From the NCBI GenBank assembly GCA_019054805.1, contig JAHQIY010000010.1, positions 2,339,501-2,403,500 on the forward strand: 64,000 nucleotides of DNA, read 5' to 3'. This DNA is from Brachionus manjavacas (taxonomy: Eukaryota; Rotifera; Eurotatoria; Ploima; Brachionidae). Of this stretch, positions 24,601 through 50,760 are shown piece after piece (the stretch's first letter is position 1; each line of letters opens with the position of its first letter). Under the pieces are notes generated by a model. The model was not told where the DNA came from, searched no databases, and saw only the letters and a program-made list of their open reading frames with translations. The translations under genes were made by a program, and so were the position numbers.

Positions 24601-27600
24601 TTATTTTTATAAAATTTTAAATGATCTTTTGAGAGTAAACTTTTTTACTTAGTAACACTAGTGCAATTTTCTTTCTTTTTTTAAATCATTTAAAAAAAGA
24701 AAGAAAATTGTTAAAGTTTAACTCGAATTTAATGTAATTTTTTGTAATTTTGCCTATGGGGCTTTAAACTAATAAATAATAATAATAACTTAAGTAATAA
24801 CTTAAATAATAATAACTTAAACCTAGGTTTTCATTTACGTAGATTACGAATATGCTATCGAAAATTGTCGATCAAGATAGTGCTGTCGTTTTGCTACGCG
24901 CGAACCTTATTTTAGTTTTAAAATAGATGGAACTGCTGAATTTTGGATATCTTATGTTCTTTCAGAAAAATTTATTCCATGATACAGTGTGTTATCTATT
25001 TTATGACCTCCTATTTTGTGACATTTCGTTTTTGTGACTCAAAGTAGAAATACACCGAAAAACATAATCCTCTCCATGTTAAATTTTTTCGAATTTGTCA
25101 CTCTTTCATATCAAGATTTTATTTACATTCATAAAATGTCAAATTTATTACGTTCATTTGAAAATAAAGTATTTGAAGATAACTTGATCTGATACAAAAA
25201 ATAATGATTTTAATTAAAATTTATTGAAATTATACATTTTTTGATTTTTTGGATGACTTGTACTTAATATTAATTTTAGATAAAATTTTTTCAATGATCC
25301 TCTTTTTTATGACATTGATGTCATAAAATCGAATTCATTTATCATTGAACTAAAATAAAATTCGAAATTTATCCCTTGGCACAATAAGATCATGGAATAA
25401 TCTGTAAAAAATTTTTTTAGTTAATGAAAGCTTAAAAAGGATTTTTATTAAAAATTAAAAATAATGATCAATTGTAAAACAAGATCTTAAAGCGAAACAA
25501 TTTCTGGATTCATAAAATATTTAAGAAAATTCAAAGACTTCACTATTCTGCATTTTAGGCTTAGGATTAGTTATTTTTTTAGATAAATTAATTTTAAAAA
25601 AAAAATTTGTGACAAATTTTTTTCATTTTTTTAACAAAATTAGAATTTTTGAGAGAAAAGTAAAAAGTAAAATAATTTCCCCGTGAAAAACATGAATTTA
25701 GATTTAAATTTGCAAGAAGACAATTACTGCAACACCTAAATACAATTTGAGAATAAGAAATTGTTGTTTTTCCGTCTTTTCAATCCACTCAAGGAGACTA
25801 AGTAATTAAAATGGAAAAAAATGCTTTTTTTATATTTTAAGCTATAAAGTAAAAATTTCTGCTTTTTTGAAAACGTTGAACTAAGTGTTTTAATTTGCAC
25901 TCTAATTTTTCCCCTGATATTTTTTCACAAAAATTTACCTAAATATTTGTAAATTTTTTATTTTGGAATTTTTTTATTTTAAAATAAATGCTCACATTTT
26001 CAATCTTTTTCTTTTGTTCAAAATTAAATAAAAAGAAAGACCCAATAATTAAATCACATAAAAATGCTTACATTTTGGGATTTTGTTTTTTTGTTGAAAC
26101 TTTTAAAAATTATCATATTAAAATTTTTAATTTGATTACTCAAGGAGCATTAAAATATCATTGGGGAAATAGAGCCCATACAGCTCGAGCTGTTAGTCTA
26201 AAATTGGCTCAAGAAACTTCAACAACAGCAGCAACAACAACAACAGCATCGACAGTGAAAAAAACTGATGGAGGATTTACTTCTGATGGATGGCATTTTT
26301 TTCCAAGCTTGAACATGGTAGTTTATTGGTTATTGGGTGAAAAGAATACAAAATTTATTGTCGAATTCGACAAACCTAGTGCTTTTGTGTCAGGCTGGTT
26401 TGCTGTTGGCTTCAACACTCAACCTAAGATGGTAAGAAAGGGGCTCTGTATTATTTGAGCCAATATTAAAATAGCATAATTAAATTAGCACATTTAAATA
26501 AGCAAGATAAAAATCGCAAGTTCGAAATATTTACCTGTAATTTTTTTTCACAAAATAAAATAGCAGAATTAAAAAAGCAGAAAATAAATAGCAATAAAGT
26601 TTTTATTATTAATTATATATAATATAAGTTGCAAGTTGTCTAATCAAAAATAAATCTAATTAATCTAATATTCTAAAACTAAAGTAAGATTATCAAAAAA
26701 AATTTCGAAACTATCCTTTTTGTACTCATTTATCAGCATTTTTAATCTCTCATCTAATTTGGCATATGCAGGTTTCCTTTTAGGAATTACGCCTGTTTTT
26801 GCCAAAACGATTTTTTCAGATACCAAAATTTGTTCTTTTCTGAACCAGTCAACTAATTTATTTACTAATGGGTGACACTTTAACATTTTTGAAAAGGAGT
26901 TATGCTCTTTTACGCGGTGGTGCAAGTTCCAAATTGCTTTACCAAACATTGGTTCAAAACGCTGCTCTACTAATGTTGCATTTCTTCCATTGCTAGATTT
27001 AACCATTTTTAGTCGCGTGTTTGATATTTTGTACTTGCTTTTTTGAATCGTAAAAGCTAAAAAGTTGCTAATTTTTTGCTAATTTAATTATACTATAATA
27101 ATTAAGATATTTTATTGTTTGCTATTTTAAAATACTCCCTAAGAAAGGGATCTAAATTTTTATTTCAGTCAATTTTATTTTTAGTCTAACGGAAATGGAG
27201 TTGTTTGCGTAGTTAACAACAATTCTGACTCTTCAGTTCATAGTTACCATTTTGATGGCTACACGCCAAAATATTTTAGCGAAAGTAATAAGAGTTGGGG
27301 CTTGAGTGATGCCAGCGTTGTTCATGAAGGTTCTTTAGTGGGTTGCACCTTTTATAGAGAAAATGTGATGAATTCAAGTAAATATATGAGCACAAACCAA
27401 GAGCTCCATTTGTTGGCCTCTTATGGAATTGGTAATTTTGAAAAGGAATCATATAAAAATAATAGTTTATTTGTGTAATGTTAAGGTTCATTTGGTTTCC
27501 ATGGCATAAATAAAGCTTACACTGAAAAAATGTACTCTTTAGTTCATCAATCAACAGATATGCCAGAATTACCATTTGACTGGAGTGACTTATTCAATGT

Positions 27601-31407: not shown

Positions 31408-33387
31408 CTAAAAAAGACGATTCGAGACTGTTAGTAATTTTAGTTTATTTAAAGCTTCATGTTGCACGATGTTGAAGGGAGTATCATATTTTAACTTTAG
31501 GATAGATCTTACTGCTGTATTCTGAATTGCTTGTAGTTTTTTGATATTATTTTCTGAAAATGAATTCAAGCAAGGAAAAGAATAGTCTAAAATCGATCCG
31601 ACTAAAGATTTATATAAATTTCCTAGTGTGTTTTGATTGAGACCCCATTTTTTGTTTGACAATATCTTAATTATATTTAACCTTTTATTGCAGCGTTCTT
31701 TGATTTCGTCTACCAGTACATTAAAATTTAACTTAGAATCAAATTTAACACTAAGAAACTTGATTTCTTTTTGGCTCACTATTCTGTTTCCATAGATTTT
31801 TAAGTTTAGATTATCACCCTCTTTTTTGTACCTAGAAAAGACTACTGAACACGACTTTTCTACTGATATCTTCATTTTCCATTTAATAAGCCATTGTTCT
31901 AGTTCATTGGTGTATTTATTTATCTTATTTTCAAGGTTCACTTTTTTGTTATAAATGAAGAATGAAACTAGATCATCTTCGAAAAGCAGAGAGTATTCAT
32001 TATTTGTTTTGTTTCTTTTTGGGATGTCATTAATATATATACTAAATAAAAGAGGACTAATTACTGAGCCTTGAGGAACACCTGCAGTTATTTGATATTC
32101 GTCGCTCAATTGGTCATTCACATTTACCTTAAATGTCCTACTATCTAAAAAGGATCTAATCCAGTTAGTCAAGTAATGAGGTGGATTCATTTTAATCAAT
32201 TTAAAAAGTAGACCTTTATGCTAAACCCTATCAAAGGCTTTAGAAATATCAAAAAAAAGGCCACAAACTCTTTTTTTTCTATTAAATGATTCCACAATTT
32301 TTTGAATTAAGAAGAAAAGATTATCTGCTGTTCGCCGGTGTTTCCTAAATCCAGATTGCTCCTGGATAAGGAGTGAATTTTGCTCTAAAAAATTGTATAA
32401 TCTTGAATATACTATGCGTTCCAGTAGCTTTCCTAAACAACTCGTTATACTAATTGGTCTATAATTTAAAGGATCGTGTAAACTAGAGGCCTTTTTTTGA
32501 ATCATAGAAATGTAAGATGTTTTCCACGCTTTCGGGACTCTACCTTCTCGAAGAGTTAAATTAAAAAGTTCTATGATTTCTATTAATGAATTTCTAGGTA
32601 AGTTTTTTAACATTAAATTATGAATTTGGTCAGGTCCTGATGCCGCTTCATTTTTTAATCTCTTTAAAGCCATAATTAATTCATTTAAGCATATTGGATC
32701 ATTAAAATTAGACTGGTTATAATTCCTAAAGAAAACAGAGTCAGAATTTAGAATTTCGATATCTTTCTCAGTATCAATTAAATCAGAATTAGGACTAAAT
32801 ATTGACGATAAGAGTTCTCCAAAGCATTTTCCCTTTTCTTCATTAGTTTTGAATTCCCTTTCATTTAAAATCAATTTAGGAATTAAATTTGATCCTTTTT
32901 TTGTTCTAAATTTATTTATTTTTTTCCAAAAAGGTATACTTGTCAGTGGGTTTTTTCCCATCTTCTCAATAAAATCAAACCAATTTTGATTCCAGAATTT
33001 TTTTAAAGAGGCCTTTAACTCAGATGCAAGTTGATTAAATTTTTGCTTGAGCTTTTGACAGCGAGTTTTCTGTTAATTTCTTCTTACTTTCCTACGTTCT
33101 TTTATCAAATTAACAATGTTTGGCGGAAGACTCGTTTTGTAGATTTTCTGAGAAAGATATGGAATGCTTTTATGTGAAGCAGAAATAATTTTTTCTGTTA
33201 TTTTATCATTTAGTTGATCTATTGTGAGGGAACTTTCAGTGACATTCACTATTTGAGAATTTAAAATCTCGCTGAATAATTGCCAGTTTGCTTTCTTATA
33301 GTTAAGCCTTTTAGCTGCTGATTTATTTTCTAATTGATAGCCCATAGAAATCGAAATTAAGAACTTAGTTTTTATAGACCCAGCCAT
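31408..33387 (-). pseudogene. LINE-A ORF2 (reverse transcriptase), 5'-truncated, two nonsense mutations
   Basis: Three collinear open segments (33387-33073, 32961-32221, 32199-31408) form one RT-bearing ORF2 lacking the N-terminal endonuclease. Visible: ASGPDQIHNLML, PKAWKTSYISMIQKK, NYRPISITSCLGKLLERIV, GLFFDISKAFDRV, GVPQGSVISPLLFSIYINDI, then the catalytic box as FEDDL where the + copy at 1270 has FADDL, and the thumb/C-terminal region to VSNRLF. A TAG after AFDRV stands where relatives have Trp, and a TAA follows KVRRN. Jockey clade is inferred from motif style. Confidence 0.9.
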
Positions 33388-34130
33388 GAACCGTTAATTT
33401 TAATTGATTAATTAAGGCTTATTCTAGCCGTTTTAATTCAACTTAGCGAAGTTAAAATTAAGATCATTTATCGGTATTTTCTCATTTTTTAAAAAGTTAC
33501 ACTGAATAAAACAATTAAAGTAATATCAGTTTTCGGTATTTTTAATTTTTTTTAAACAATGGTGTTGAATAAAAAAATAAGATCAGTTTTCGGTGTTTTT
33601 ATTTTTTAAGGGAAAGACAATCAATTAACAATCGAAATCAATTAAGTTGAATGAAAAGTTTTTTTATTTAGAAAAAATTCAATGTAATTTTGCTTGGGTC
33701 ATTTTTGACCCATTTTGGCCGATAACCGAACTTTTGGACGGATAAGAGTTAAAATGTGATACTCCCTCCACCATGGTGCAATATTAAGCTTTTAATAAAC
33801 TTAAATTACTAACAGTCTTGAATCGGCTATTTGAGTTGAGTGAGAGATATGTTGGGACAGGACTGAATCATTCTGTTTCATTGATTCTCAGACTGATGGA
33901 GGAATACAAAGAAGGTTTCGAATCAAGATGTATTGAATACCCAACTCCATTGTGGAATTGCTACTTTATTATTTCCTCCTTTTTGTCCTGAAATCTAAAC
34001 TATGTAAACATGAGCCACATATAACAATCTATGTCTTCTCAACTTTCATTTTTTTTACCTTATTCACTTAAATTTTATTTTTTTAAATTTATTCTGAAGG
34101 AGCTTTAGCTCGGTAAGAAAACAAATAAAA

Positions 34131-35081: not shown

Positions 35082-36073
35082 TTAAATTTATTTAAATTTT
35101 AAAAAATTAAAGAAAAGTTTTTGAAGGATATAATTAAGTTGATGTAAAAAATGAATACAAAGCTCAGTTTGAGGGAGTTGTTAACATTGATTTAATATTA
35201 ATTTATTTTATTAAAATTATTTATTCTTTCCTGTAAGTCAAGGCTTAAGCGGAACTAATGAATTCAAAACTCAATTTTAAGTACTATTTTCTGATAATTA
35301 GACTTTATGAAATTCTTTTAAAAATTTGCTTTAAATTTTATAATGCTAATTTTCTCAAGCTGATCCATTTTTCATCAAGAGTTTTAAAGCAAAAACATAA
35401 AAATGAATTTCAATTTGAAATTTATGTTTTTGTTCTTTGTTCCAAATCCTAAATTAAAATTGATTTCGAATTCAAATTTATTTAAATAATGTTCTTCGCT
35501 ACTACTTGATTTAAATGCTTATCCACGGTTTCAAAAAAAATTCAACTTAGCATAATTTGGTCAATTTTTTTGTCTGAATTTGAAAAGCCTGCCTGAAAAA
35601 AAATCATAAATTTCATAATTTAATTTTATTTAGCAAAAAAAACACATTTAAGTGTGTATAAAAAGAAACAAACAAAAGAAACAAAAAAAGCTCCTTTTCA
35701 ATCAAGCCAAAGCTAATTAAATTATCTAATATTTTTGCTAACTTATTGGCACAAATGACAACATTACAACAAACACCAGCAGTCTCATAAAGCTTGCATA
35801 AATTTTGCAACTACCTGAGTTCAACACGTTCTATTATTATAATTAATTGCAAATAAAAACCGATACCACTAATAATATTCATCTAGTTAGCATAATTTTT
35901 TGAATAAATAATTTTTTATTTTAAATAAAATTTTAATTGAAAATTGGATGGAATTTTTGAACTAATTTTTTTAGTGATTTTTTTAAAATAAAAAAAAAAT
36001 TTAAATTCACAAATTTTCATTTGCATAAGCTTTTTTTCAACTTTTTTTCAACTGTGGCCGACAAAGCAATGCT
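35082..36073. other. Intergenic, upstream of the motif-array gene
   Basis: AT-rich. Small ORFs (for example 35258-35452 +, 35613-35810 -) are low-complexity and unsupported. The promoter and 5' UTR of the gene at 36074 should lie at the right end; an AG before the start (ACAAAGCAATG) could be a splice or trans-splice acceptor but cannot be shown. Confidence 0.5.
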
Positions 36074-37198
36074 ATGGATAAGCCACATAAAAAGCTGAAA
36101 GCCTCATCGAGCGCCAAACTGATTTCTCACTATGTCAAAAACATCGAATTCAACTCGACTAGCAAAAAGCCTGTGTCACACTATGTCAAAAACGATGAGC
36201 CCATAAACCACTGCTCAAAGCCCATATCGCACTACATCAGAACGGGACAGCTCAAAAACTCCGCATCTAGCCTCGTTTCGGACTATTTCCAGTCCAATGG
36301 GCTGAAAAATTGTGCAGAAAACAGTGAAGCAGAGCCGGTCTGTCTGGAGAGCAGGCGAGTTCGCTCAAGGCGAAACTACATTTCGCAAATAATCAACAGT
36401 GAGCCCAATGACGCTAGACCTGGCCGCAACATCAGTCAAATTTTGAACGAGAACAGCAAAGAAAACGACTCCAGTCATCACATAGTGCCGATTGGCGACA
36501 CCACAAACCAGCCCAATAGAAAGATGCACAAAGTGAAGAGTGTGCTCATATCGGACTACATAAAAAACATTGAGAGCCAGCCGGACTGTTCAATATATCT
36601 TGGAAAATCGCAGTTGATTTCCAAGCTGATCGGACTGGACGCCAACAGCTGCTCGAGTCCCAGTGACTCGAAAAGCTTGCCGGCCGAGCCCAAGGAGAGC
36701 GAGGCTGAATTGAGCCAGAATGTGGCCAATTTGTCCAGGAAAAAAAGCCGCGGAAATTTCATTTCTTTTTATTTGAAGTCGAACAGCTCGCCTGAGTCAG
36801 CCGTCGCCAGTCAAAAATGCGACTTGGCAAATAGAGAAAAAAGTTTTGTCAAACTGAGACGTTCCAAGCTAATATCCCAGTACATCAGAAATGAAAAAAT
36901 GGATTGGAATGGTGCACAGTTCAGTGTAAAGACAGAAGAAACAAAGCAAAAGTCTAAACAGGCTATTAGATCGAGGTATATCTCGTCTTTCATTAAGCAG
37001 TACGAGAACGAAAGTGTGCTGGCTGATAGTCCACATACTTTAAACAAAATCATAAGACGAAATTTGGCCTTAACTTATACCAAAAGTGGACGAAGAGCCT
37101 TCAGGCGAAGCAAGGGCCAAAAGGACAGGTTTTTGAAAAAATACATTAAGCTTGACAATATTGTCAATCGGCTTAGAAAGACCAAAAAACTTGATTAG
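36074..37198 (+). CDS. Motif-array protein with 11 or more copies of a short I-S-x-Y-type motif
   Basis: A single-exon 374-aa ORF of unknown family, basic and Ser/Asn/Lys-rich, with no signal peptide or membrane helix. A nine-residue motif of the form [KRS]-x-[IV]-S-x-[YF]-[IVL]-[KR]-[NS] recurs at residues 15, 32, 49, 66, 101, 118, 157, 180, 228, 265 and 301 (KLISHYVKN, KPVSHYVKN, KPISHYIRT, SLVSDYFQS, NYISQIINS, RNISQILNE, VLISDYIKN, QLISKLIGL, NFISFYLKS, KLISQYIRN, RYISSFIKQ), plus a degenerate one near 352. The first four copies, and the pair 101/118, are spaced exactly 17 residues apart. The C-terminus is strongly basic. GC content is well above the flanks, as in the other true genes here, and the ORF is fully open, so it is probably expressed. 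AATAAA lies at about 37213. An array of short motifs between low-complexity linkers suggests a disordered, multivalent docking protein; this is inference. Confidence 0.8.
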   Translation: MDKPHKKLKASSSAKLISHYVKNIEFNSTSKKPVSHYVKNDEPINHCSKPISHYIRTGQLKNSASSLVSDYFQSNGLKNCAENSEAEPVCLESRRVRSRRNYISQIINSEPNDARPGRNISQILNENSKENDSSHHIVPIGDTTNQPNRKMHKVKSVLISDYIKNIESQPDCSIYLGKSQLISKLIGLDANSCSSPSDSKSLPAEPKESEAELSQNVANLSRKKSRGNFISFYLKSNSSPESAVASQKCDLANREKSFVKLRRSKLISQYIRNEKMDWNGAQFSVKTEETKQKSKQAIRSRYISSFIKQYENESVLADSPHTLNKIIRRNLALTYTKSGRRAFRRSKGQKDRFLKKYIKLDNIVNRLRKTKKLD

Positions 37199-38168
37199 TA
37201 TTTTAAACATTTTAATAAAGTATTAGAAATTTTTTTTTCTTGTTAATAAATTTTATTTTATGTTTTTTTTTTTTTTTATAAAGGTTTTTAAATTTAAGGC
37301 TAATGGGACACTGCCAGTTTATATCAAAATAAATATTTTTAATTTTAACATCTTTTTATTAAAATATTAAAAAATTTATTTAATAAAAATAAAAATGATA
37401 TTTTACACCCCCAATTACAGTGCTGCTACGATACCTTGAATTCACGATATTTTACCATATTTACCGTAAAATATAGTAATCTAAAAAAGGGTATTTTTCG
37501 TAAAAAACCGATAATTATTGTAAAATTCAGTGAAAAAAAATTTCCAAAATTTCTCGAAAAAAACCGATTTTCATGAAAAAAAGATTTTTTTTTGAATTTT
37601 TGAAAAAGAAAAAAAAAAAATTTGAATTTTGTGACAATAATTGACGTAAATTTCGGTAAATTTTTGTAGAAAAAGGTAAAAAATGGTAAAAATTCAACAA
37701 AAAAGGATTTTTTATTATTTAATTTAATTTTTTTTAAACAAATTATGAAAATTAATATTTAAACATTTTTTACAAAATTTAATTTATTTCTAGCTTTTTT
37801 TGCTTTTAAGCTGTTAGCTGCCTTGTCCCAAGCTTCTTAGAATGTGGAACCTTTTGGAATAAATTTTACAAGCCCAGCTTTTTAAAAAAATTTATATCTA
37901 ACTTTTGATTTCATTTTAAGCATATTATTTTACTTTTGATATTAAGCATTTCATTTGGACATTTAGTTATATAATATTTAAGAGTTTGATTTTAAATGAC
38001 TTTAACCTTTTTCAAGCTATAAATGATTTTCAAAAAACTTTGACAGTTGAAAATGTAAGAAAAATATAAATCATCATAAAAAAGTAAAAAAATTATTAAA
38101 AAATTTTATTATTATAATTTTTTAAATAAAACATTTCTAGGTTGTTGAGATTGTAATTGAGAGAAATG
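37199..38168. other. Intergenic with a small inverted-repeat element
   Basis: Contains a MITE-like pair: 37850-37905 (CCTTTTGGAATAAATTTTAC, then AAGCCCAGC) and its inverted copy at 38186-38228, spacer about 280 bp. The large inverted duplication starts inside this element. A run of TACCGTAAA/TTTACCGTAA-like simple sequence lies at about 37440-37690. Confidence 0.6.
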
Positions 38169-38559
38169 GTATAAATTAGATAAAATTTTTTTTAAAAAGC
38201 TGGGCTTGTAAAATTTATTCCAAAAGGTTATTAAGTGTAAAAGTCCATACATGACCTTTTAAAAAAAAAATTATAGCTTTTTATTTTTTTTAGACGGTTT
38301 TGGCTCGACATTTTGAAAAATAATAAAAAACTGAGACTTGTGACTTTTAAGCAGCTCTCTCAAGATTTCAAATTTAAAAATAATTTAAGTCATTATTGCA
38401 AGCATTTTCATCATTGAATTTAAACTTTTTAGTGAAATAGGACGAGTTTAATTTTTATTTGAAAATTTAAAAAATAAAAATCAACTTGATTTAAATTCAA
38501 ATTAGAAAAAGTCCATAAATATGCCTTTCATTTATTACTTTAAATATAAATTAGTGTGC

Positions 38560-38605
38560 CTTATCAGCACACTCGCTGGCTAGCCAGCTACAGTCAAAAC
38601 TACTC
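38560..38605. repeat. Paired short palindromes
   Basis: A GTGTGC...GCACAC stem is followed directly by the perfect palindrome GCTGGCTAGCCAGC. The mirror copy lies at about 51600-51645 in the right arm. Function unknown; it could be the 3' hairpin of a rolling-circle or other element. Confidence 0.5.
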
Positions 38606-39159
38606 CTACTAAATATTATTCTTATCATTTGTTTTACTTTTTAGAAGGTTAGGATTATATTGATTAACTGTACTATTCAATAAAAATTTTATGTTTTTTT
38701 TTTCAATATTTTTTTACATTACATGATTACTTTGAATATTTCAGAACTCGTTAAAGGGAATATTTTTGATTCTAGATATCTTCAGAAGAATACAAGTTTT
38801 GAAAAATTAGCTTTGCTCCAAACGAGTTGAGCGAATTTTGATATTTCGTCTAAAGAAAAGTCTAATAATAAATAAATTTTTTTATCAAAGAACTTATAAG
38901 AATTAAATTTTCTAAGTTTGGAGTTTATATCAAGAAAATCATTTTTTCGTTTGTCATCGTTTGTCTTCAAAATAACATTTCAGAAAATTTTATAATTTAT
39001 TAATTTTTTATGTGCTTTTTAATTAATTAATAAATTGACTCAATCATCCCATTATTGGTTTTGACCTTTGGTCTCTTTGGTTGAGTTGTACATTAGAAAA
39101 AAAAAATTTTATTCCAAGTGGATACTTACTGATGAAAGATAATTTGATTTTTAAAAATT

Positions 39160-39310
39160 AAACTCGCTCAATTTCACTTTCAATATTCACTTAAAACTAT
39201 TTTTTATTTGAAACTTTAAAAAAATATTTCAAGCATCGCACTTTTTCAATGTTATTTCAACAGTTGATACATTTTGTAATTCAAACACAAAAAATTAAAC
39301 CAAATTAATT
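39160..39310. repeat. Dispersed subterminal repeat
   Basis: Contains GCATCGCACTTTTTCAATG and TACATTTTGTAATTCAAAC. The same block occurs inverted at 50880-51030 (right arm) and as the two ends of the composite at 54684-57397, marking a transposon family. Confidence 0.65.
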
Positions 39311-39429
39311 CAAAAATTGAACGTCAAATCAACAAGGAAAAAAATATTTCCAGTTAAAGTCAAGTTAAAAGGATTCAAGTTTTGAATCAGTTTAGAATTG
39401 AAGAATTTTATTAAAAATTAAATTTTTTT

Positions 39430-39620
39430 ATAATAATTTATTTATTTGCTTTCTTAACGAGCTAGAGCTCCTTCAGAATAAATTAAAAAAAATAAAATAA
39501 AAATAAAAATAAAAAATAAAATTAAAGTAAATAAGCTAAAAAAATGAAAGTTAAGAAGACATATTTATGGAATAGATTGCTATAAGTGGCTGATGTTTAC
39601 ATAGTTCAAGTTTCATGAAG
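39430..39620 (-). mobile_element. LINE-A 3' tail (left arm)
   Basis: The minus-strand LINE-A tail hairpin (ACGAGCTAGAGCTCCTTCAG) plus 3' UTR (TTCAAGTTTCA) directly abuts the Tigger element. On the far side of Tigger, 41787-41850 resembles LINE-A ORF2 (VVFSRYK and DSELNFNILV on the minus strand), so Tigger landed in a LINE-A copy. The mirror is at 50580-50760. Confidence 0.75.
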
Positions 39621-39622
39621 TA

Positions 39623-41784
39623 GTCATTATTTTTTGTCCCAGGTACAAAATATTTTTTTCGTATTTGCCACGTCACAAATTTGGTTTTGTAGCCACTTTT
39701 TGATGGTATTTTGTACCGTCACAAAACATTTTGTGCCAGCTACAATTCCGAATTTATACCATGGTACAAAACAGGTCATTTTAAAATGTGTGATATAAAA
39801 AAATCCGAGACTTTTTTTTTGCAAATATTTTATTTATAAATTCAGGAATTTATTCGAAAAAACTTAGAAAACTAAGGAAATTTTTTTATTATCTTTATAA
39901 CATTAATATTATTTTTAATCATTTTAATACAAATTAATTGTAACTCTTGAGTCTAAAGAAAATCAAATTGTAACAAATTACGATTCGTATTGATTATGAA
40001 ACTAAATTTTAATATAATTAAGTCCATAATTGATATGTTTACATGAAGTAATGAATAAAATGTTTCGAAACATAAAATGTGAAGAAAAACAGGCAGAAAA
40101 AGGACACTGCCAATTTCGTCACCACTTTCATGCTCATCAATACTAGAATGGTCTTCTAGATCACTTGAATCAGAATTTTGGTCCGATTCTTCGTCGACAA
40201 CACCGTCATCATCGGTCTCATGATTTTGATTCAATCTACCTTCGACTCGAGTATCAATTTCTTCTAAGTTCCCTTGATCAAATCCATCTACATCAATTTC
40301 ACCTTCATCGTTGTCGACATAATCATCGATGAGACCTCGTTTCAAAATATGTTTTAAAGTTCCATGAAAATCGTCTTGGTTATTCGAAGTGATTTCACAG
40401 ACGTGAAATGATGATTTAATAATCGACGAGTCGAATTCATCCCATATTTGTGATAGCCACTCAATTGCTCTCTTATAGTCTGGTGATTTTAAATTCCCAT
40501 TTTCGTAAACGATTTAAAATCGTTTAAATACCAACTTGTCCATTTTCATTTCATTTTGTGTCATTCAGTGTATGATTTTTTTAATGACTTTAACCAACAG
40601 ACATCTGCAGGTTGAAGCAAACAAGTGAGTCTCGCCGGTATGAGTGAATACGAAATATTTAAGTCTTGCATAAAGCTCGTTGTTGACGAGTTTTTATAAC
40701 ACGGTGCTTGATCAAAGTAGAGTATTGGATTTTTGTGTGACCTTTTAATCAAGTGAGATAGAAATAGACGCTGGATAAAATCGGTTTTAATCAACTGAGA
40801 AACGAAAGTGCCACTCGGCTTGTTTACCACAACTACATTTGATGGAATTTGAAAATCTTTGATCGGTGTTTTTCGTGGGACTAAAATTATTAATGGAAAC
40901 TTGGTCCCGTCAGCACTTGCGCATAAACCGATTGACAATCTCGCACTTCCAGATGTATCTACTTTAACTCGTTTTGCACCGCGCTGTTCGTAAGTATAGT
41001 TCTCAGTTGAGTCTAAGTATAACGTTGTCTCATCAAAATTATAAATTTGGCTACGAGGTCTTTTTACACAGTCGTCATTGCAATTTTTAAAAAATTGATT
41101 GATTGTCTCAACGCAGTTACTTGGTAAAGTTCGTCCATTTGATGTTATTCTTCTAAGAACGAGATTATTCCGGTCTAAAAAGCGACTCAACCAACCCTTG
41201 GAAGCTTTAAAGAAATCTATGCCAGATTGATCAGCTAAATTTAATGTCTTCAGTTAACACATGCACCAGTATTTCGAGATCGATTGGTCCAATTGAGGAG
41301 ATTTGTTTCCAGATTTACAAACTTTAATTTTCGATCATATAATACATGAAATCTTCTACTTTTTGATGAAAAAACGAGGATTTTAATGTGTTTGTGTAAC
41401 ATACTTCTTTTATACAACAAATTGAAAAGGTCAAGTTTATTTTTATAAAATTTGAAATTTAAAAAGGACAAGCGATAGTAAGTAATATGTTTTCTTAAGA
41501 GATTTCTAATTTCATGTTGATTTTTGTAAGGTATCTTTTGATATTACAAAAAAAGTCAAAAATAATTTTCTTTGTGGCCTTTTCTATTTAATTTCTTAGG
41601 ATTTATTAAACCAAAAGAAATTCTTGACTACTTAAATAATGAAACAAAAAAAAGTCTCGGATTTTTTTATATACACATTTTTAAATGACCTGTTTTGTAC
41701 CATGGTATAAATTCGGAATTGTAGCTGGCACAAAATGTTTTGTGACACTTTTTCTGTTTTATACTGGGACAAAAAATGAGGGAT
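39623..41784 (-). mobile_element. Tigger (pogo-type) transposon, left-arm copy
   Basis: About 130-bp inverted ends contain TTTTTTGTCCCAG, ACAAAACATTTTGTGCCAGC and TACCATGGTACAAAACAGG. TA dinucleotides border both ends (39621-39622, 41785-41786), as expected for TA-targeting pogo elements. Inside is one decayed transposase gene on the minus strand. The inverted twin is 48416-50576. Confidence 0.88.
39953..41471 (-). pseudogene. Tigger-type DDE transposase, inactivated
   Basis: The order on the minus strand is a CENP-B-type region (LETNLLNWTNRSRN; then, after a frameshift near 41230, QSGIDFFKASKGWLSRFL), then the DDE_1 core (41190-40561). Catalytic positions are visible: D in YNFDETTLY, D in LYFDQAPCYKN and D in LLQPADVCW. 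After a TGA stop at about 40561 come AIEWLSQIWDEFDSSII and an Asp/Glu-rich tail (DDYVDNDEGEIDVDG), typical of Tigger C-termini. The helix-turn-helix expected at the extreme N-terminus is not evident. Frameshift and stop make it inactive. Confidence 0.85.
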
Positions 41785-41849
41785 TACGGTACCAGTATAT
41801 TAAAATTTAACTCAGAATCAACAGCGAGTTGTTTTTGTACCTAGAAAAG

Positions 41850-42520
41850 ACTACTTCAGATGGAGTTTCTATATTGTCAGAGGTACTAAGTGGAGTTCCG
41901 CAAGGTTCTGTACTTGGACCTATGCTATTTATTCTGTACATAAATGAAATACTTGACTGCGTTTCAAATAAAATGGAATTTTATGCAGATGACTCAAAAA
42001 TACTCGGCATAGTTAATAAATTTTGTGAGAGAGCAATTTTACAGAAAGACCAGGATGCAGTGTGCCAATGGGTAGAGATTTGGGACTGTGTGCTGATAAA
42101 TATAAAGTAATGCATTTCGGCAGACTAAATGCAAAGCATAAATATACACAGAGTGTGAGCGAGCACAGAGTGTGAGAGGGATCTTGGAGTGATGGTCTCA
42201 TCAGATTTAAAGTGGACCCATCAAGTGAAAAGTGCTTGTGCGAAAGCAATTCGGGTACTTAGAATGCTCAAGCAAACGTTTACAAGTATAGAGGATAGGC
42301 TTTGGGGTAAGATTGTATGTATCCATGGTAAGACCTCATCTAGATTACGCAGTGCAGATTTTGAATCCAAGTATGAAAAGGGATGTGAACGCGTAAGAAA
42401 AGGTGCAAGAAAGGGCAACAAAAATACCTTTGTCTCTAAGAAACATGTCGTATGAAATGAGGTTAACGAAATTAGGACTGACAAAGCTGAGTGAAAGAAG
42501 AGTAAGGGGGACTTGATTGA
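41850..42520 (+). pseudogene. LINE-C reverse transcriptase 3' segment (left arm)
   Basis: Open pieces encode VLSGVPQGSVLGPMLFILYI, MEFYADDSKILGIV (YADD box intact), DLKWTHQVKSACAKAIRVLR and, near 42430-42515, MSYEMRLTKLGLTKLSERRV then RGDLIE: CR1-like RT core to C-terminus. Frame breaks occur at about 42110 and 42330-42420. It meets an opposite-strand LINE piece head-on at about 42520. Confidence 0.88.
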
Positions 42521-42524
42521 AATC

Positions 42525-43199
42525 ATTTAAACTAATTATATCTGGTAGGTGTTTATTTGTCATGTTCAGTAGTTGTAAGGTTTTGTGGGATTTGACGATT
42601 GATTGGGAGTTAAGGTGTAGCATTTTCAGCGGCTTATTGTTGTTCATTTTCATATTCAATGTATGGATCGGACATGTTTGCATCGAAGCGGTCATTTTTT
42701 AGACTTGCGAAAAGTATTGGTTCGAGTTCACGACTATATCGTTGCCCAAGATTTGTTGAAATAATATCGAGTAGAGGTTTTGGGTCTTCGTGGACTGTTG
42801 AGGTGATTTTGTTCAAGTTTCTAATTAGGTCTATTATAAATTTAAGGATTGAGAGTGTTGAAGGGTTTTGTTGTTGCTGGCTATTGAAACTGGAATAATT
42901 TCTTTGAAAATTATTGCTATTTTGTGTTTTTTTAGTAGTCTTTTTTCTTGTTCGGCTGATTTTGCGATAACTGCTTCTTGGAGAATTTTGCATGACTTAG
43001 AACAGGCTGCGTGATTTTCACCACAGTTTACGCATTTAAATTTGGCTTGGTCTTTTACATGACATGATTTGAAGTGGTGTTTACCAGAGCATCTGAGACA
43101 GGTAGGGTTTTTTTCTATACATTTTTCTTTAGTGTGTCCAAACTTCTGGCAGTTGAAACATTGGTCTGGAGTAGTTCCTGAAACAGAGTAGTTCCGCAT
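42525..43199 (-). pseudogene. LINE-C ORF1 zinc-knuckle end plus start of ORF2 (left arm)
   Basis: Minus strand 43199-42834 encodes three CCHC-like knuckles: CFNCQKFGHTKEKC, CLRCSGKHHFKSC and CVNCGENHAACSKSC, the nucleic-acid-binding end of LINE ORF1. A Gln/Asn-rich tail (QQQQNPSTL) and YIEYENEQQ end ORF1 in a shifted frame. ORF2 then starts (LKMLHLNSQSIVKSHKTLQL, then PDIISLNDF), the beginning of an AP-endonuclease domain, and is cut at about 42525 by the RT segment in opposite orientation. Only this copy retains the first two knuckles; the copies at 44774 and 47128 begin at the third. Confidence 0.85.
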
Positions 43200-43653
43200 T
43201 GGAATAAGTTGCGATAAAATGTGGTCAAATCTAAGTCAACCGCTAATTTTAAAATGGCTTTAAATAATTTAGATAAGTACAATGGGATCGGCGGTGGTGG
43301 GTTCAGACTCTCTATATGTTAGGTGTCGCAGCATGAACTACTACTTCTACTACTACAACTGAACATGACTTAAATTATACTTTATATAAATAATGTATAT
43401 TTACTACAAAATGATTTTTGCATTAAAAAAGACAATTAATTAAAATAATGATATAAAAATTTAGGAAAAATACCGTGAAGCTGCAATGGATTACTTGCGT
43501 TAAGTTCAATTAGAAGTCGAATTTCTAAATAAATACAGTGAGATCCAAACTTTAAAATTATTTTTTAATATTTTATTTGTTTCAAACAAATAAAAGAAAG
43601 TTTCTCTAATTATAATAGTTAACAACATCTGTTTCACTAAATTTCTTTATAGT
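43071..43653. other. Single-copy centre of the palindrome
   Basis: After the ORF1 N-terminal part (to about 43260) there is a LINE 3'-end-like segment with (TAC)n (about 43340-43365). Then at 43465-43560, after a TTTAG, an open stretch reads EKYREAAMDYLR, stop, VQLEVEFLNKYSEI, possibly a coding relic of unknown origin. Confidence 0.5.
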
Positions 43654-44154
43654 TATTTATTTTATATTTGTTTTGTCTATAAAGTTTCTTTTGCCATTTA
43701 TTTTTTCATCATGTTTTTTAGCTATAATTTCCTTTCACATTAATTTTTCTTTTTAAGTTTTTGACAATAAAATATATTAGCATTATTCCCTTTTTTATGA
43801 TGAAAAGGATTTTAAAGGCGTCTCGTATTACAAAGACATTTGAAATAATTTTTCTTTCTGAGCGGTTACCGAGTCTTTGATCATCTATTTGAATGACTCG
43901 CACACAAACCACTTGGTTACACGGACTTTTAACGTTTGTTTGCTAGAATTTTTGATTTGGATTTTTCGTCATAAAAAATTGAAAATTATATTAATTTAAG
44001 TATTTGAAAAATATAATAAAAAATTTAAAAAATGAAGTAAAAAATTTTTATATGTCAGAAATTTTTTTTTATTTTTATTTTACATTTTTCAAAAAATCTT
44101 CAAGAAAAAAAAAGCCAAAATAAGAATTTGTTTTGTAAAAAAAAATCTATTAGG

Positions 44155-44610
44155 ATAGTACGAACCTCTTAATAACGAAATCCCGATATAACGAACTAAG
44201 AAAAAAAACTTTACATAACGAATTTTAAAAAAATGACATCCGTTAATAGACACCTTGATAATAAAAAATAGTAAATAAATACTTGACAATTACTAATTAT
44301 TGATTATCTAAAAATTCTAATTGATAAAAACGAATGAAAAGCAAGTTTGCAAAAAGAGAAAATGTATATCTCTTGAAGTCAAGATAGAAATTATAAAAAT
44401 CAAGTGATTAACTCGAAAGAAGCAATCGATAGAATAAATGAACTGAAACAATTTTTTTTAAACAAAAAAGATGATGATTCTAATGTAATTAATTTATTAT
44501 TTAATATTGAAAATTTTATAATTGAAAGTAGCTTTACCTAACAATCATCTATTACCGATTTTTTTCAAAAAAATTAACTTTTTGTTTTTTCTCACATTTT
44601 TATTTTAGAT
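44155..44610 (+). mobile_element. Internally deleted Tigger-like element (unit 1)
   Basis: Starts with GAACCTCTTAATAACGAAAT and CCCGATATAACGAAC, typical Tigger-type terminal repeats. Near 44355 it encodes KKRKCISLEVKIEIIKIK (transposase N-terminal helix-turn-helix). After a frame break it passes straight to EAIDRINELKQFF and QSSITDFFQKN, a transposase C-terminus, so the catalytic middle is gone. The right end is rearranged into the hairpin at 44557-44778. Confidence 0.65.
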
Positions 44611-44778
44611 TTTTTATCAATACAATTTGGTTTAAAAATTTTTTTATACCTATCATTTTATATTTAATAGAGAATTTCGATATTACGACTCGTAAATTTT
44701 TAAACCAAATTGTATTGATAAAAAATCTAAAATAAAAATGTGAGAAAAAACAAAAAGTTAATTTTTTTGAAAAAAATC
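44557..44778. repeat. 85-bp perfect inverted repeat with 52-bp loop (unit 1)
   Basis: Arms 44557-44641 and 44694-44778 are exact reverse complements (GATTTTTTTCAAAAAAATTA ... and inverse). The loop contains TTCGATATTACGACTCG. The right arm ends exactly where the inverted LINE-C copy begins. Confidence 0.93.
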
Positions 44779-45340
44779 ATGTCATGTAAAAGACCAAGCC
44801 AAATTTAAATGCGTAAACTGTGGTGAAAATCACGCAGCCTGTTCTAAGTCATGCAAAATTCTCCAAGAAGCAGTTATCGCAAAATCAGCCGAACAAGAAA
44901 AAAGACTACTAAAAAAACACAAAATAGCAATAATTTTCAAAGAAATTATTCCAGTTTCAATAGCCAGCAACAACAAAACCCTTCAACACTCTCAATCCTT
45001 AAATTTATAATAGACCTAATTAGAAACTTGACCAAAATCACCTCAACAGTCCACGAAGACCCAAAACCTCTACTCGATATTATTTCAACAAATCTTGGGC
45101 AACGATATAGTCGTGAACTCGAACCAATACTTTTCGCAAGTCTAAAAAATGACCGCTTCGATGCAAACATGTCCGATCCATACATTGAATATGAAAATGA
45201 ACAACAATAAGCCGCTGAAAATGCTACACCTTAACTCCCAATCAATCGTCAAATCCCACAAAACCTTACAACTACTGAACATGACAAATAAACACCTACC
45301 AGATATAATTAGTTTAAATGATTTCAATCAAGTCCCCCCT
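44774..45340 (+). pseudogene. LINE-C ORF1 end plus ORF2 start (unit 1)
   Basis: Inverted copy of 42525-43070. Starts at the third zinc knuckle (CVNCGENHAACSKSC), continues through the Gln/Asn-rich ORF1 tail and the ORF2 start (LKMLHLNSQSIVKSHKTLQL), and is cut by an opposite-strand RT segment. Confidence 0.85.
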
Positions 45341-46010
45341 TACTCTTCTTTCACTCAGCTTTGTCAGTCCTAATTTCGTTAACCTCATTTCATACGACAT
45401 GTTTCTTAGAGACAAAGGTATTTTTGTTGCCCTTTCTTGCACCTTTTCTTACGCGTTCACATCCCTTTTCATACTTGGATTCAAAATCTGCACTGCGTAA
45501 TCTAGATGAGGTCTTACCATGGATACATACAATCTTACCCCAAAGCCTATCCTCTATACTTGTAAACGTTTGCTTGAGCATTCTAAGTACCCGAATTGCT
45601 TTCGCACAAGCACTTTTCACTTGATGGGTCCACTTTAAATCTGATGAGACCATCACTCCAAGATCCCTCTCACACTCTGTGCTCGCTCACACTCTGTGTA
45701 TATTTATGCTTTGCATTTAGTCTGCCGAAATGCATTACTTTATATTTATCAGCACACAGTCCCAAATCTCTACCCATTGGCACACTGCATCCTGGTCTTT
45801 CTGTAAAATTGCTCTCTCACAAAATTTATTAACTATGCCGAGTATTTTTGAGTCATCTGCATAAAATTCCATTTTATTTGAAACGCAGTCAAGTATTTCA
45901 TTTATGTACAGAATAAATAGCATAGGTCCAAGTACAGAACCTTGCGGAACTCCACTTAGTACCTCTGACAATATAGAAACTCCATCTGAAGTAGTCTTTT
46001 CTAGGTACAA
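45335..46010 (-). pseudogene. LINE-C RT segment (unit 1)
   Basis: Minus-strand copy of 41850-42520 with the same frame breaks: SGVPQGSVLGPMLF, FYADDSKIL, DLKWTHQVKSA. Confidence 0.87.
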
Positions 46011-46507
46011 AAACTATTTATTTTATATTTGTTTTGTCTATAAAGTTTCTTTTGCCATTTATTTTTTCATCATGTTTTTTAGCTATAATTTCCTTTCACA
46101 TTAATTTTTCTTTTTAAGTTTTTGACAATAAAATATATTAGCATTATTCCCTTTTTTATGATGAAAAGGATTTTAAAGGCGTCTCGTATTACAAAGACAT
46201 TTGAAATAATTTTTCTTTCTGAGCGGTTACCGAGTCTTTGATCATCTATTTGAATGACTCGCACACAAACCACTTGGTTACACGGACTTTTAACGTTTGT
46301 TTGCTAGAATTTTTGATTTGGATTTTTCGTCATAAAAAATTGAAAATTATATTAATTTAAGTATTTGAAAAATATAATAAAAAATTTAAAAAATGAAGTA
46401 AAAAATTTTTATATGTCAGAAATTTATTTTTATTTTTATTTTACATTTTTCAAAAAATCTTCAAGAAAAAAAGCCAAAATAAGAATTTGTTTTGTAAAAA
46501 AATCTAT

Positions 46508-46965
46508 TAGGATAGTACGAACCTCTTAATAACGAAATCCCGATATAACGAACTAAGAAAAAAAACTTTACATAACGAATTTTAAAAAAATGACATCCGT
46601 TAATAGACACCTTGATAATAAAAAATAGTAAATAAATACTTGACAATTACTAATTATTGATTATCTAAAAATTCTAATTGATAAAAACGAATGAAAAGCA
46701 AGTTTGCAAAAAGAGAAAATGTATATCTCTTGAAGTCAAGATAGAAATTATAAAAATCAAGTGATTAACTCGAAAGAAGCAATCGATAGAATAAATGAAC
46801 TGAAACAATTTTTTAAACAAAAAAGATGATGATTCTAATGTAATTAATTTATTATTTAATATTGAAAATTTTATAATTGAAAGTAGCTTTACCTAACAAT
46901 CATCTATTACCGATTTTTTCAAAAAAATTAACTTTTTGTTTTTTCTCACATTTTTATTTTAGATT
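46508..46965 (+). mobile_element. Internally deleted Tigger-like element (unit 2)
   Basis: Copy of the element at 44155-44610 with shorter A and T runs (for example near 46500 and 46810). Confidence 0.65.
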
Positions 46966-47132
46966 TTTTATCAATACAATTTGGTTTAAAAATTTTTTTA
47001 TACCTATCATTTTATATTTAATAGAGAATTTCGATATTACGACTCGTAAATTTTTAAACCAAATTGTATTGATAAAAAATCTAAAATAAAAATGTGAGAA
47101 AAAACAAAAAGTTAATTTTTTTGAAAAAAATC
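46912..47132. repeat. Inverted repeat with loop (unit 2)
   Basis: Same hairpin as at 44557, with one T fewer in the left arm. The right arm again joins the inverted LINE-C copy. Confidence 0.92.
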
Positions 47133-47695
47133 ATGTCATGTAAAAGACCAAGCCAAATTTAAATGCGTAAACTGTGGTGAAAATCACGCAGCCTGTTCTA
47201 AGTCATGCAAAATTCTCCAAGAAGCAGTTATCGCAAAATCAGCCGAACAAGAAAAAAAGACTACTAAAAAAACACAAAATAGCAATAATTTTCAAAGAAA
47301 TTATTCCAGTTTCAATAGCCAGCAACAACAAAACCCTTCAACACTCTCAATCCTTAAATTTATAATAGACCTAATTAGAAACTTGAACAAAATCACCTCA
47401 ACAGTCCACGAAGACCCAAAACCTCTACTCGATATTATTTCAACAAATCTTGGGCAACGATATAGTCGTGAACTCGAACCAATACTTTTCGCAAGTCTAA
47501 AAAATGACCGCTTCGATGCAAACATGTCCGATCCATACATTGAATATGAAAATGAACAACAATAAGCCGCTGAAAATGCTACACCTTAACTCCCAATCAA
47601 TCGTCAAATCCCACAAAACCTTACAACTACTGAACATGACAAATAAACACCTACCAGATATAATTAGTTTAAATGATTTCAATCAAGTCCCCCCT
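47128..47695 (+). pseudogene. LINE-C ORF1 end plus ORF2 start (unit 2)
   Basis: Same as 44774-45340, but one extra A in the Lys-rich stretch near 47253 shifts the frame between the third knuckle and the ORF1 tail. Confidence 0.85.
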
Positions 47696-48371
47696 TACTC
47701 TTCTTTCACTCAGCTTTGTCAGTCCTAATTTCGTTAACCTCATTTCATACGACATGTTTCTTAGAGACAAAGGTATTTTTGTTGCCCTTTCTTGCACCTT
47801 TTCTTACGCGTTCACATCCCTTTTCATACTTGGATTCAAAATCTGCACTGCGTAATCTAGATGAGGTCTTACCATGGATACATACAATCTTACCCCAAAG
47901 CCTATCCTCTATACTTGTAAACGTTTGCTTGAGCATTCTAAGTACCCGAATTGCTTTCGCACAAGCACTTTTCACTTGATGGGTCCACTTTAAATCTGAT
48001 GAGACCATCACTCCAAGATCCCTCTCACACTCTGTGCTCGCTCACACTCTGTGTATATTTATGCTTTGCATTTAGTCTGCCGAAATGCATTACTTTATAT
48101 TTATCAGCACACAGTCCCAAATCTCTACCCATTGGCACACTGCATCCTGGTCTTTCTGTAAAATTGCTCTCTCACAAAATTTATTAACTATGCCGAGTAT
48201 TTTTGAGTCATCTGCATAAAATTCCATTTTATTTGAAACGCAGTCAAGTATTTCATTTATGTACAGAATAAATAGCATAGGTCCAAGTACAGAACCTTGC
48301 GGAACTCCACTTAGTACCTCTGACAATATAGAAACTCCATCTGAAGTAGTCTTTTCTAGGTACAAAAACAA
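47690..48371 (-). pseudogene. LINE-C RT segment (unit 2)
   Basis: Minus-strand copy of 41850-42520; together with the preceding piece it is the inner end of the right arm. Confidence 0.87.
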
Positions 48372-48415
48372 CTCGCTGTTGATTCTGAGTTAAATTTTAA
48401 TATACTGGTACCGTA

Positions 48416-50576
48416 ATCCCTCATTTTTTGTCCCAGTATAAAACAGAAAAAGTGTCACAAAACATTTTGTGCCAGCTACAATTCCGAATTTATACCATGG
48501 TACAAAACAGGTCATTTAAAAATGTGTATATAAAAAAATCCGAGACTTTTTTTTGTTTCATTATTTAAGTAGTCAAGAATTTCTTTTGGTTTAATAAATC
48601 CTAAGAAATTAAATAGAAAAGGCCACAAAGAAAATTATTTTTGACTTTTTTTGTAATATCAAAAGATACCTTACAAAAATCAACATGAAATTAGAAATCT
48701 CTTAAGAAAACATATTACTTACTATCGCTTGTCCTTTTTAAATTTCAAATTTTATAAAAATAAACTTGACCTTTTCAATTTGTTGTATAAAAGAAGTATG
48801 TTACACAAACACATTAAAATCCTCGTTTTTTCATCAAAAAGTAGAAGATTTCATGTATTATATGATCGAAAATTAAAGTTTGTAAATCTGGAAACAAATC
48901 TCCTCAATTGGACCAATCGATCTCGAAATACTGGTGCATGTGTTAACTGAAGACATTAAATTTAGCTGATCAATCTGGCATAGATTTCTTTAAAGCTTCC
49001 AAGGGTTGGTTGAGTCGCTTTTTAGACCGGAATAATCTCGTTCTTAGAAGAATAACATCAAATGGACGAACTTTACCAAGTAACTGCGTTGAGACAATCA
49101 ATCAATTTTTTAAAAATTGCAATGACGACTGTGTAAAAAGACCTCGTAGCCAAATTTATAATTTTGATGAGACAACGTTATACTTAGACTCAACTGAGAA
49201 CTATACTTACGAACAGCGCGGTGCAAAACGAGTTAAAGTAGATACATCTGGAAGTGCGAGATTGTCAATCGGTTTATGCGCAAGTGCTGACGGGACCAAG
49301 TTTCCATTAATAATTTTAGTCCCACGAAAAACACCGATCAAAGATTTTCAAATTCCATCAAATGTAGTTGTGGTAAACAAGCCGAGTGGCACTTTCGTTT
49401 CTCAGTTGATTAAAACCGATTTTATCCAGCGTCTATTTCTATCTCACTTGATTAAAAGGTCACACAAAAATCCAATACTCTACTTTGATCAAGCACCGTG
49501 TTATAAAAACTCGTCAACAACGAGCTTTATGCAAGACTTAAATATTTCGTATTCACTCATACCGGCGAGACTCACTTGTTTGCTTCAACCTGCAGATGTC
49601 TGTTGGTTAAAGTCATTAAAAAAATCATACACTGAATGACACAAAATGAAATGAAAATGGACAAGTTGGTATTTAAACGATTTTAAATCGTTTACGAAAA
49701 ATGGGAATTTAAAATCACCAGACTATAAGAGAGCAATTGAGTGGCTATCACAAATATGGGATGAATTCGACTCGTCGATTATTAAATCATCATTTCACGT
49801 CTGTGAAATCACTTCGAATAACCAAGACGATTTTCATGGAACTTTAAAACATATTTTGAAACGAGGTCTCATCGATGATTATGTCGACAACGATGAAGGT
49901 GAAATTGATGTAGATGGATTTGATCAAGGGAACTTAGAAGAAATTGATACTCGAGTCGAAGGTAGATTGAATCAAAATCATGAGACCGATGATGACGGTG
50001 TTGTCGACGAAGAATCGGACCAAAATTCTGATTCAAGTGATCTAGAAGACCATTCTAGTATTGATGAGCATGAAAGTGGTGACGAAATTGGCAGTGTCCT
50101 TTTTCTGCCTGTTTTTCTTCACATTTTATGTTTCGAAACATTTTATTCATTACTTCATGTAAACATATCAATTATGGACTTAATTATATTAAAATTTAGT
50201 TTCATAATCAATACGAATCGTAATTTGTTACAATTTGATTTTCTTTAGACTCAAGAGTTACAATTAATTTGTATTAAAATGATTAAAAATAATATTAATG
50301 TTATAAAGATAATAAAAAAATTTCCTTAGTTTTCTAAGTTTTTTCGAATAAATTCCTGAATTTATAAATAAAATATTTGCAAAAAAAGTCTCGGATTTTT
50401 TTATATCACACATTTTAAAATGACCTGTTTTGTACCATGGTATAAATTCGGAATTGTAGCTGGCACAAAATGTTTTGTGACGGTACAAAATACCATCAAA
50501 AAGTGGCTACAAAACCAAATTTGTGACGTGGCAAATACGAAAAAAATATTTTGTACCTGGGACAAAAAATAATGAC
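48416..50576 (+). mobile_element. Tigger transposon, right-arm copy
   Basis: Inverted twin of 39623-41784 with the same terminal repeats and bordering TA dinucleotides. Confidence 0.88.
48729..50248 (+). pseudogene. Tigger-type DDE transposase, inactivated (right arm)
   Basis: Carries the same frameshift (about 48945-48965) and the same TGA stop (about 49637) as the left-arm copy, and the same intact catalytic positions (YNFDETTLY, LYFDQAPCYKN, LLQPADVCW). The shared lesions mean the gene was already dead when the segment was duplicated. Confidence 0.85.
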
Positions 50577-50579
50577 TAC

Positions 50580-50760
50580 TTCATGAAACTTGAACTATGT
50601 AAACATCAGCCACTTATAGCAATCTATTCCAATATATGTCTTCTTAACTTTCATTTTTTTAGCTTATTTACTTTAATTTTATTTTTTATTTTTATTTTTA
50701 TTTTATTTTTTTTAATTTATTCTGAAGGAGCTCTAGCTCGTTAAGAAAGCAAATAAATAA
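50580..50760 (+). mobile_element. LINE-A 3' tail (right arm)
   Basis: Plus-strand LINE-A 3' UTR and tail hairpin (TGAAGGAGCTCTAGCTCGTT) with TAAATAAATTA end; mirror of 39430-39620. Confidence 0.8.

Follow-up and report, generated by a model that had tools for sequence, protein, structure and literature searches.

Does the open reading frame at positions 36074 to 37198 belong to a gene and, if so, what could a protein do in which one short motif recurs along most of the chain? We studied the frame in its setting, a 64,000-nucleotide stretch of the Brachionus manjavacas genome (the window). A sequence-only reading had described a single-exon protein built around the motif and had proposed a multivalent docking scaffold.

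The open reading frame and its surroundings

Coordinates, length, the unbroken frame, the Ser/Lys/Asn-rich make-up and the basic C-terminus were all as first described (Table 1). GC content is 43.7% within the frame and 22.5% and 18.7% in the 1-kb flanks. The other five reading frames of the same segment each contain between 9 and 25 stop codons. In 20 simulated sequences of 64 kb with the composition of the window, no open stretch exceeded 163 codons, compared with 374 here. In 50 simulated pieces of 4 kb with the composition of the frame itself, the maximum was 224 codons. No second copy was found in the organism's own genome (114 Mb, 61 contigs), where 9 of 9 and 7 of 7 candidates were scored. 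A weak second match in that genome (E 0.19 to P0008, a relative introduced below) is a proline-rich stretch and was taken as chance. Judged by composition and conservation, the frame looks like a real single-copy gene.

The encoded protein, hereafter P0001, has a net positive charge, with 70 Lys/Arg against 37 Asp/Glu. The pyrimidine-rich run next to the start codon would fit a putative splice or trans-splice acceptor. Neuropeptide precursors were considered and dropped because the N-terminus, MDKPHKKLK, is unlike a signal peptide as judged by eye. An alignment of P0001 with its seven relatives (P0002 to P0008) contains an invariant IKLDNIV stretch inside the C-terminal tail.

Table 1. Positions of the motif copies, other sites of the gene and neighbouring features. 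Residue numbers are those of P0001; nucleotide positions are those of the window.
Feature	Residues	Position	Strand	Remarks
Open reading frame		36074-37198	+	374 aa, uninterrupted; pI about 9.9; no second copy found in own genome
Motif 1	15-22	36116-36139	+	core I17
Motif 2	32-39	36167-36190	+	core V34
Motif 3	49-56	36218-36241	+	core I51
Motif 4	66-73	36269-36292	+	core V68; gapped in P0005, degraded in P0004 and P0006
Motif 5	101-108	36374-36397	+	core I103; fourth place Ile, not Tyr, in P0001
Motif 6	118-125	36425-36448	+	core I120; aliphatic class; P0005 and P0008 lack the Ser
KEN tripeptide	129-131	36458-36466	+	aligned place common to 7 of 8 proteins
Motif 7	157-164	36542-36565	+	core I159
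Motif 8	180-187	36611-36634	+	core I182; aliphatic class; missing from P0008
Motif 9	228-235	36755-36778	+	core I230
Motif 10	265-272	36866-36889	+	core I267; among the best kept
Motif 11	301-308	36974-36997	+	core I303
Possible degenerate copy	322-330	37037-37063	+	judged by eye from the alignment
Possible degenerate copy	353-362		+	in the C-terminal tail
Conserved basic C-terminal tail	345-374	37106-37195	+	alignment of 8 proteins
Possible polyadenylation signal		37214-37219	+	AATAAA, shortly past the stop codon
Pyrimidine-rich run		36030-36066		two copies of CTTTTTTTCAA; ends in AG directly 5' of the start codon
DOMON-like frame		3457-3705		E 2.4e-06; 28.2 bits, cut-off 32.7
DOMON-similar frames		near 21.7-22.2 and 26.3-27.5 kb		by eye
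Cytochrome c oxidase subunit IV gene		14803-15370		Pfam COX4 on 14803-15147; second exon by eye
Frame		25988-26455		one of the DOMON-similar frames; no Pfam match at E 0.01
Non-LTR retrotransposon pieces		31408-33393		5' of the gene; minus-strand RVT_1 within 32224-32961
Further retrotransposon fragments		near 1.1-2.8 and 41.8-48.4 kb		by eye
Nested palindrome		38169-52029		very large; centre near 45.1 kb
Frame in outer palindrome arm		40561-41190	-	209 aa; DDE_1 transposase-like (the copy tested)
Frame in outer palindrome arm		49010-49639	+	209 aa
Nucleoside phosphorylase family frame		53589-54482		PNP_UDP_1
PfkB-type (ribokinase-like) gene		57954-58873		at least 2 exons

The inverted arms of the palindrome measure 2024, 1396, 715 and 251 bases and are 98-100% complementary; further in lie arms of 680, 565, 441 and 130 bases. 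One and the same 209-aa frame is present in each outer arm. The structure may be a recent rearrangement or an assembly artefact.

Relatives of the protein

Homologues in related species, the lack of which would have spoken against the sequence-only reading, do exist. Seven full-length relatives were found in the protein collection; the two that carry names are both from Brachionus. They align with P0001 end to end, from first Met to last Asp, and P0006 starts ten residues earlier. Identity to P0001 ranges from 89% to 39% in the multiple alignment. Among named relatives the nearest, 87% identical over the full length, is BpHYR1_006075, a hypothetical protein from Brachionus plicatilis. At the far end stands an unnamed Brachionus calyciflorus product, with 33% identity by BLASTP or 39% by multiple alignment. 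The contigs that carry P0002, P0004, P0005 and P0007 measure 1.2-1.5 kb, a size that would be compatible with transcripts. Polyproline stretches occur in a linker of P0007 and P0008 and in none of P0001-P0006. In the literature searched, no paper was found for locus tag BpHYR1_006075.

Searches of the protein collection with a single sequence, a four-sequence profile and the C-terminal region returned no relatives beyond these seven. Briefly, the profile search scored the best 7994 candidates by shared words. Candidates in the homology searches were 0.55-1.75 times the length of the query, so homologues that are much longer or have diverged strongly could escape. The protein is known so far only from Brachionus-like rotifer sequences and appears to be fast-evolving.

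Pattern and spacing of the motif

At least 11 copies of [KRS]-x-[IV]-S-x-[YF]-[IVL]-[KR]-[NS] had been claimed. Taken strictly, this pattern matches P0001 three times (residues 15, 32 and 265). The relaxed pattern [IV]-S-x-x-[IVLFM] has 11 matches, of which eight carry Tyr or Phe at the fourth place. Shuffled versions of P0001 averaged 1.4 relaxed matches, or 0.09 with Tyr/Phe, and none of 5000 shuffles reached either count. Each of the seven relatives contains 9 to 11 relaxed matches. Loss of the pattern in orthologues, which the sequence-only reading would have counted against itself, was thus not seen at the protein level. The copies share a loose consensus, S-[KR]-[LYPF]-[IV]-S-x-[YF]-[IVL]-[KR]-[NST].

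To describe individual places we numbered residues from the core (position 0) and counted over 87 cells. These comprise 11 copies in 8 proteins minus the gapped motif 4 of P0005, and include cells where the pattern is lost. Position +1 is Ser in 84 of the 87 and Thr in none. Hydrophobic residues or Pro occupy -1 in 77 cells; aromatic residues occupy +3 in 62 and +4 in five. Lys or Arg stands three residues ahead of the motif Ser in 45 of 88 cells, including six of the 11 copies of P0001. Copies 5, 6 and 8 are mostly aliphatic where other copies mostly carry Tyr or Phe. Hence, there may be two classes of motif, one aromatic and one aliphatic.

Successive cores of P0001 lie 17, 17, 17, 35, 17, 39, 23, 48, 37 and 36 residues apart. 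For this protein it is correct, as first noted, that copies one to four are spaced by 17 residues and copies five and six likewise. The interval of 17 between motifs 1-3 is kept in seven of the eight proteins and becomes 17 and 18 in P0008. Between motifs 5 and 6 it is not kept, being 18 in P0002, P0003, P0004 and P0006 and 28 in P0007; motif 6 is unmatched in P0005 and P0008. Among the relatives the distance between motifs 6 and 7 ranges from 35 to 52. That between motifs 10 and 11, before the tail, ranges from 36 to 45 and is in no case 33.

Conservation and origin of the array

The array is present in all eight proteins and its motifs are conserved above the linkers. For this comparison, which the sequence-only reading had suggested, a mask of columns -2 to +5 was set by hand and the rest of residues 1-319 was treated as linker. 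Mean pairwise identity among the eight aligned proteins was 0.786 in motif columns and 0.442 in linkers (0.79 vs 0.44), as expected of a scaffold of short linear motifs. Residues 320-374 gave 0.691. When the mask was slid round residues 1-319, the observed difference between motif and linker was reached at one of 318 positions. Between P0001 and P0007, 74% of motif and 26% of linker residues are identical; between P0001 and P0008 the figures are 61% and 21%.

Orthologous copies are 0.58 identical (n = 33) and different copies 0.33 (n = 495). This argues that the array predates the split of the sampled species and that the copies have been separately maintained, not homogenised. A copy of P0001 is most similar to its own orthologue in P0007 in 10 of 11 cases with ties and eight without. 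For P0008 the numbers are eight and four of 11. On these counts, individual copies pair with their orthologues firmly in P0007 and less firmly in P0008.

The 11 motif serines of P0001 use five codons drawn from both Ser classes (AGT in motif 6, TCN in the other ten). Hence, the likeness between copies is at the protein level. Fifteen identical bases recur 51 bases apart in motifs 1 and 2. We read this as the trace of a tandem duplication of a 17-codon unit, by which the array would have grown at least in part. The number of motifs does not appear to be fixed. Not every site seems to be needed, because some relatives have degraded forms of motifs 4, 6 and 8 or lack them.

Searches for known families and motif classes

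All eight proteins were scanned against Pfam and none had a match at or above a family cut-off. The strongest match was PRIMA1 in P0008 (residues 164-214, E 0.00012; 22.4 bits, cut-off 38.6). It covers the proline-rich linker, was set aside as a composition effect and recurs in P0007 at E 0.87. Other Pfam matches among the eight proteins had E 0.055 or weaker and all fell under the cut-off. A TEA domain was rejected because the two of the eight proteins that match it score 9.5 and 9.7 bits, where the cut-off is 25.1; the match lies at residues 261-275 of P0001 (E 1.6) and elsewhere, at 334-367, in P0005. Neither the single sequence nor a family profile matched the PDB. A 17-residue motif profile gave six PDB matches with E from 0.28 to 2.1 (an RNA polymerase, three ferritins, a ULP protease and LRRC48), all taken as chance. 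Rfam had no match in the window. The statement that no family can be recognised stands: Pfam and the PDB give no family, and the protein collection gives only the seven relatives. A chain that has no known domain should indeed match neither Pfam nor the PDB.

We also scanned 25 motif patterns in P0001, P0007 (400 of 405 residues) and P0008. None covers more than two copies per protein, except generic Phi-x-x-Phi-Phi and a basophilic kinase pattern. Eight patterns were run on the eight full-length proteins, and their matches are given with each motif class. A KEN tripeptide is present in all eight proteins, within otherwise poorly kept linkers. It hints only weakly at turnover by APC/C, because 14-30% of each protein's shuffles hold one and the fuller D-box, RxxLxx[ILVM]x[NDE], occurs in none of the eight (minimal RxxL occurs in all).

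Interpretation of the array

The best reading is that P0001 is a probably disordered, probably nuclear platform on which one partner domain docks at many sites. We hold it with modest confidence. A docking scaffold had already been called the simplest reading; conservation of motif over linker favours it and binding to a partner is still a proposal. In P0001, 43 of the 80 large hydrophobics of residues 1-319 fall in the 88 motif residues and the linkers are polar. This looks like the anatomy of a flexible chain with short docking sites. Hydrophobics at -1, 0, +3 and +4 with Ser at +1 would sit more naturally on a short helix or one helical turn than on an alternating strand. We propose that, on contact, each of the 11 copies forms a short helix or turn that exposes these hydrophobics and the fixed Ser to the partner. 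Each would engage a single copy of a shared partner domain. Avid yet dynamic binding would then follow from the many weak sites along one flexible tether. Residues 320-374, which are well kept, may instead be the main functional part, and conservation of the motifs could stem from folding into a small repeat structure instead of docking.

If the repeated sites were degenerate PCNA-interacting (PIP) boxes, the protein would be a multi-site PCNA binder. The sequence-only reading saw a faint likeness of this kind, while remarking that the Gln and second aromatic are missing. Anchors at 0, +3 and +4 do match PIP positions 4, 7 and 8 in spacing, and Ser at +1 occupies the place of Thr in degron-type boxes. 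The aliphatic of position 4 is nearly always kept and an aromatic stands at position 7 in 62 of 87 cells, but Gln at position 1 is found in none and both aromatics in only four. For one site these absences are not decisive, because a curated study of PCNA binders (77 proteins; PMC6881253) finds Gln missing from 34% of its motifs and one aromatic from 43%. Across 11 independent boxes, however, the chance of no Gln at that 34% would be about 7e-6, a value to be read knowing that duplicated copies are not independent. The same study states that positive flanks raise affinity, and Lys/Arg flank many copies; the hydrophobic or Pro at -1, on the other hand, falls outside the PIP definition given there. 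Canonical PIP and APIM patterns had no matches in any of the eight proteins. With Gln absent, an extra fixed Ser and a hydrophobic at -1, the likeness to PCNA-docking motifs is not supported. We reject membership of the PIP class and consider a PCNA-binding array very unlikely. It is highly improbable that P0001 is simply a lineage-specific protein of low complexity, with repeats that arose by recent duplication and have no function. Partial tandem growth at motifs 1-2 and the lack of relatives past the seven would agree with that view, but motif columns are conserved relative to linkers, copies match their own orthologues best (10 of 11 in P0007 and 8 of 11 in P0008, with ties) and synonymous codons differ among copies.

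The near-invariant Ser, never replaced by Thr, would also be explained if a basophilic Ser kinase used the array as a ladder of substrate sites, with each motif Ser part of a multisite phosphorylation switch. The basic residue three before Ser suits such a kinase in about half of the cells, but five of the 11 copies of P0001 lack it, and the hydrophobic anchors are conserved nearly as well as the Ser. We regard the ladder as quite unlikely; phosphorylation of Ser may be an added layer and not a rival to docking. Alternatively, the motifs could be short basic amphipathic segments that pack together or on a polymer (DNA, RNA, microtubule or actin), the run of motifs 1-4 being a small structural repeat. 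Net positive charge and the regular spacing of motifs 1-3 accord with this, and the weak TEA match in P0001 would be compatible with a helical segment. However, that match is far under the cut-off and lies elsewhere in P0005. Furthermore, later spacings vary (17 to 28 for motifs 5-6), and such variation would be hard to fit into a regular repeat fold or a polymer register. That the Ser is never replaced by Thr points to a pocket contact more than to a general surface. We judge packing of this kind unlikely.

The docking platform is thus our favoured reading of a conserved array unlike the families tested. If true, it is a clean natural case of a lineage-restricted protein made largely of one repeated docking motif. 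Its grammar (residue, spacing and copy number) would be readable from evolution across relatives 89% to 39% identical, and the interaction system would be one absent from the 25 motif patterns compared. A bolder proposal, which we find doubtful, is that S-[KR]-[LYPF]-[IV]-S-x-[YF]-[IVL]-[KR] is an undescribed motif class read by a domain that is not known to read peptides of this kind, and that the protein is the hub of a KEN-degraded, cell-cycle nuclear assembly peculiar to monogonont rotifers. "Undescribed" here rests on the family searches.

Comparison with known systems

The KNL1 MELT array is a fast-evolving scaffold of short motifs around Ser/Thr, and P0001 resembles it as a fast-evolving, Ser-centred array. 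The MELT-type pattern M-[DE]-[LIVM]-[ST] has no match in the eight proteins. KNL1 ends in a C-terminal RWD/coiled-coil region; Pfam gave no KNL1 or RWD/coiled-coil match in the eight proteins, and a diverged domain could escape such a search. Coactivators with LxxLL motifs, of which RIP140 is a multi-copy example, share the generic Phi-x-x-Phi-Phi spacing with 11 of 11 copies in P0001, 11 of 11 in P0007 and nine of nine in P0008. The motif here has Ile/Tyr/Ile and a fixed Ser in place of Leu, and LxxLL itself has no match in any of the eight proteins.

PCLAF/PAF15 is a basic protein with a KEN tripeptide. Like it and other PIP-box proteins, P0001 is basic, has hydrophobic anchors at 0, +3 and +4 and contains KEN. 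Unlike PCLAF/PAF15, it has 11 copies with a fixed extra Ser and no Gln, and the second aromatic is nearly always aliphatic. LC8 binds sites with the core [TIV]-Q-[TVI], and neither this core nor a TQT-like site matches any of the eight proteins; the array is therefore no member of the LC8-binding class. Among known systems, the closest in its way of working is nevertheless an LC8 ligand, ASCIZ (ATMIN). Its motifs are of the TQT type and it has zinc fingers, whereas no zinc finger is among the Pfam matches here. The shared principle is a disordered chain with many copies of one motif: according to PMC5963919, the disordered LC8-binding domain of ASCIZ carries seven motifs in fly and 11 in human for one hub protein, and the ASCIZ-LC8 complexes are dynamic and of low occupancy.
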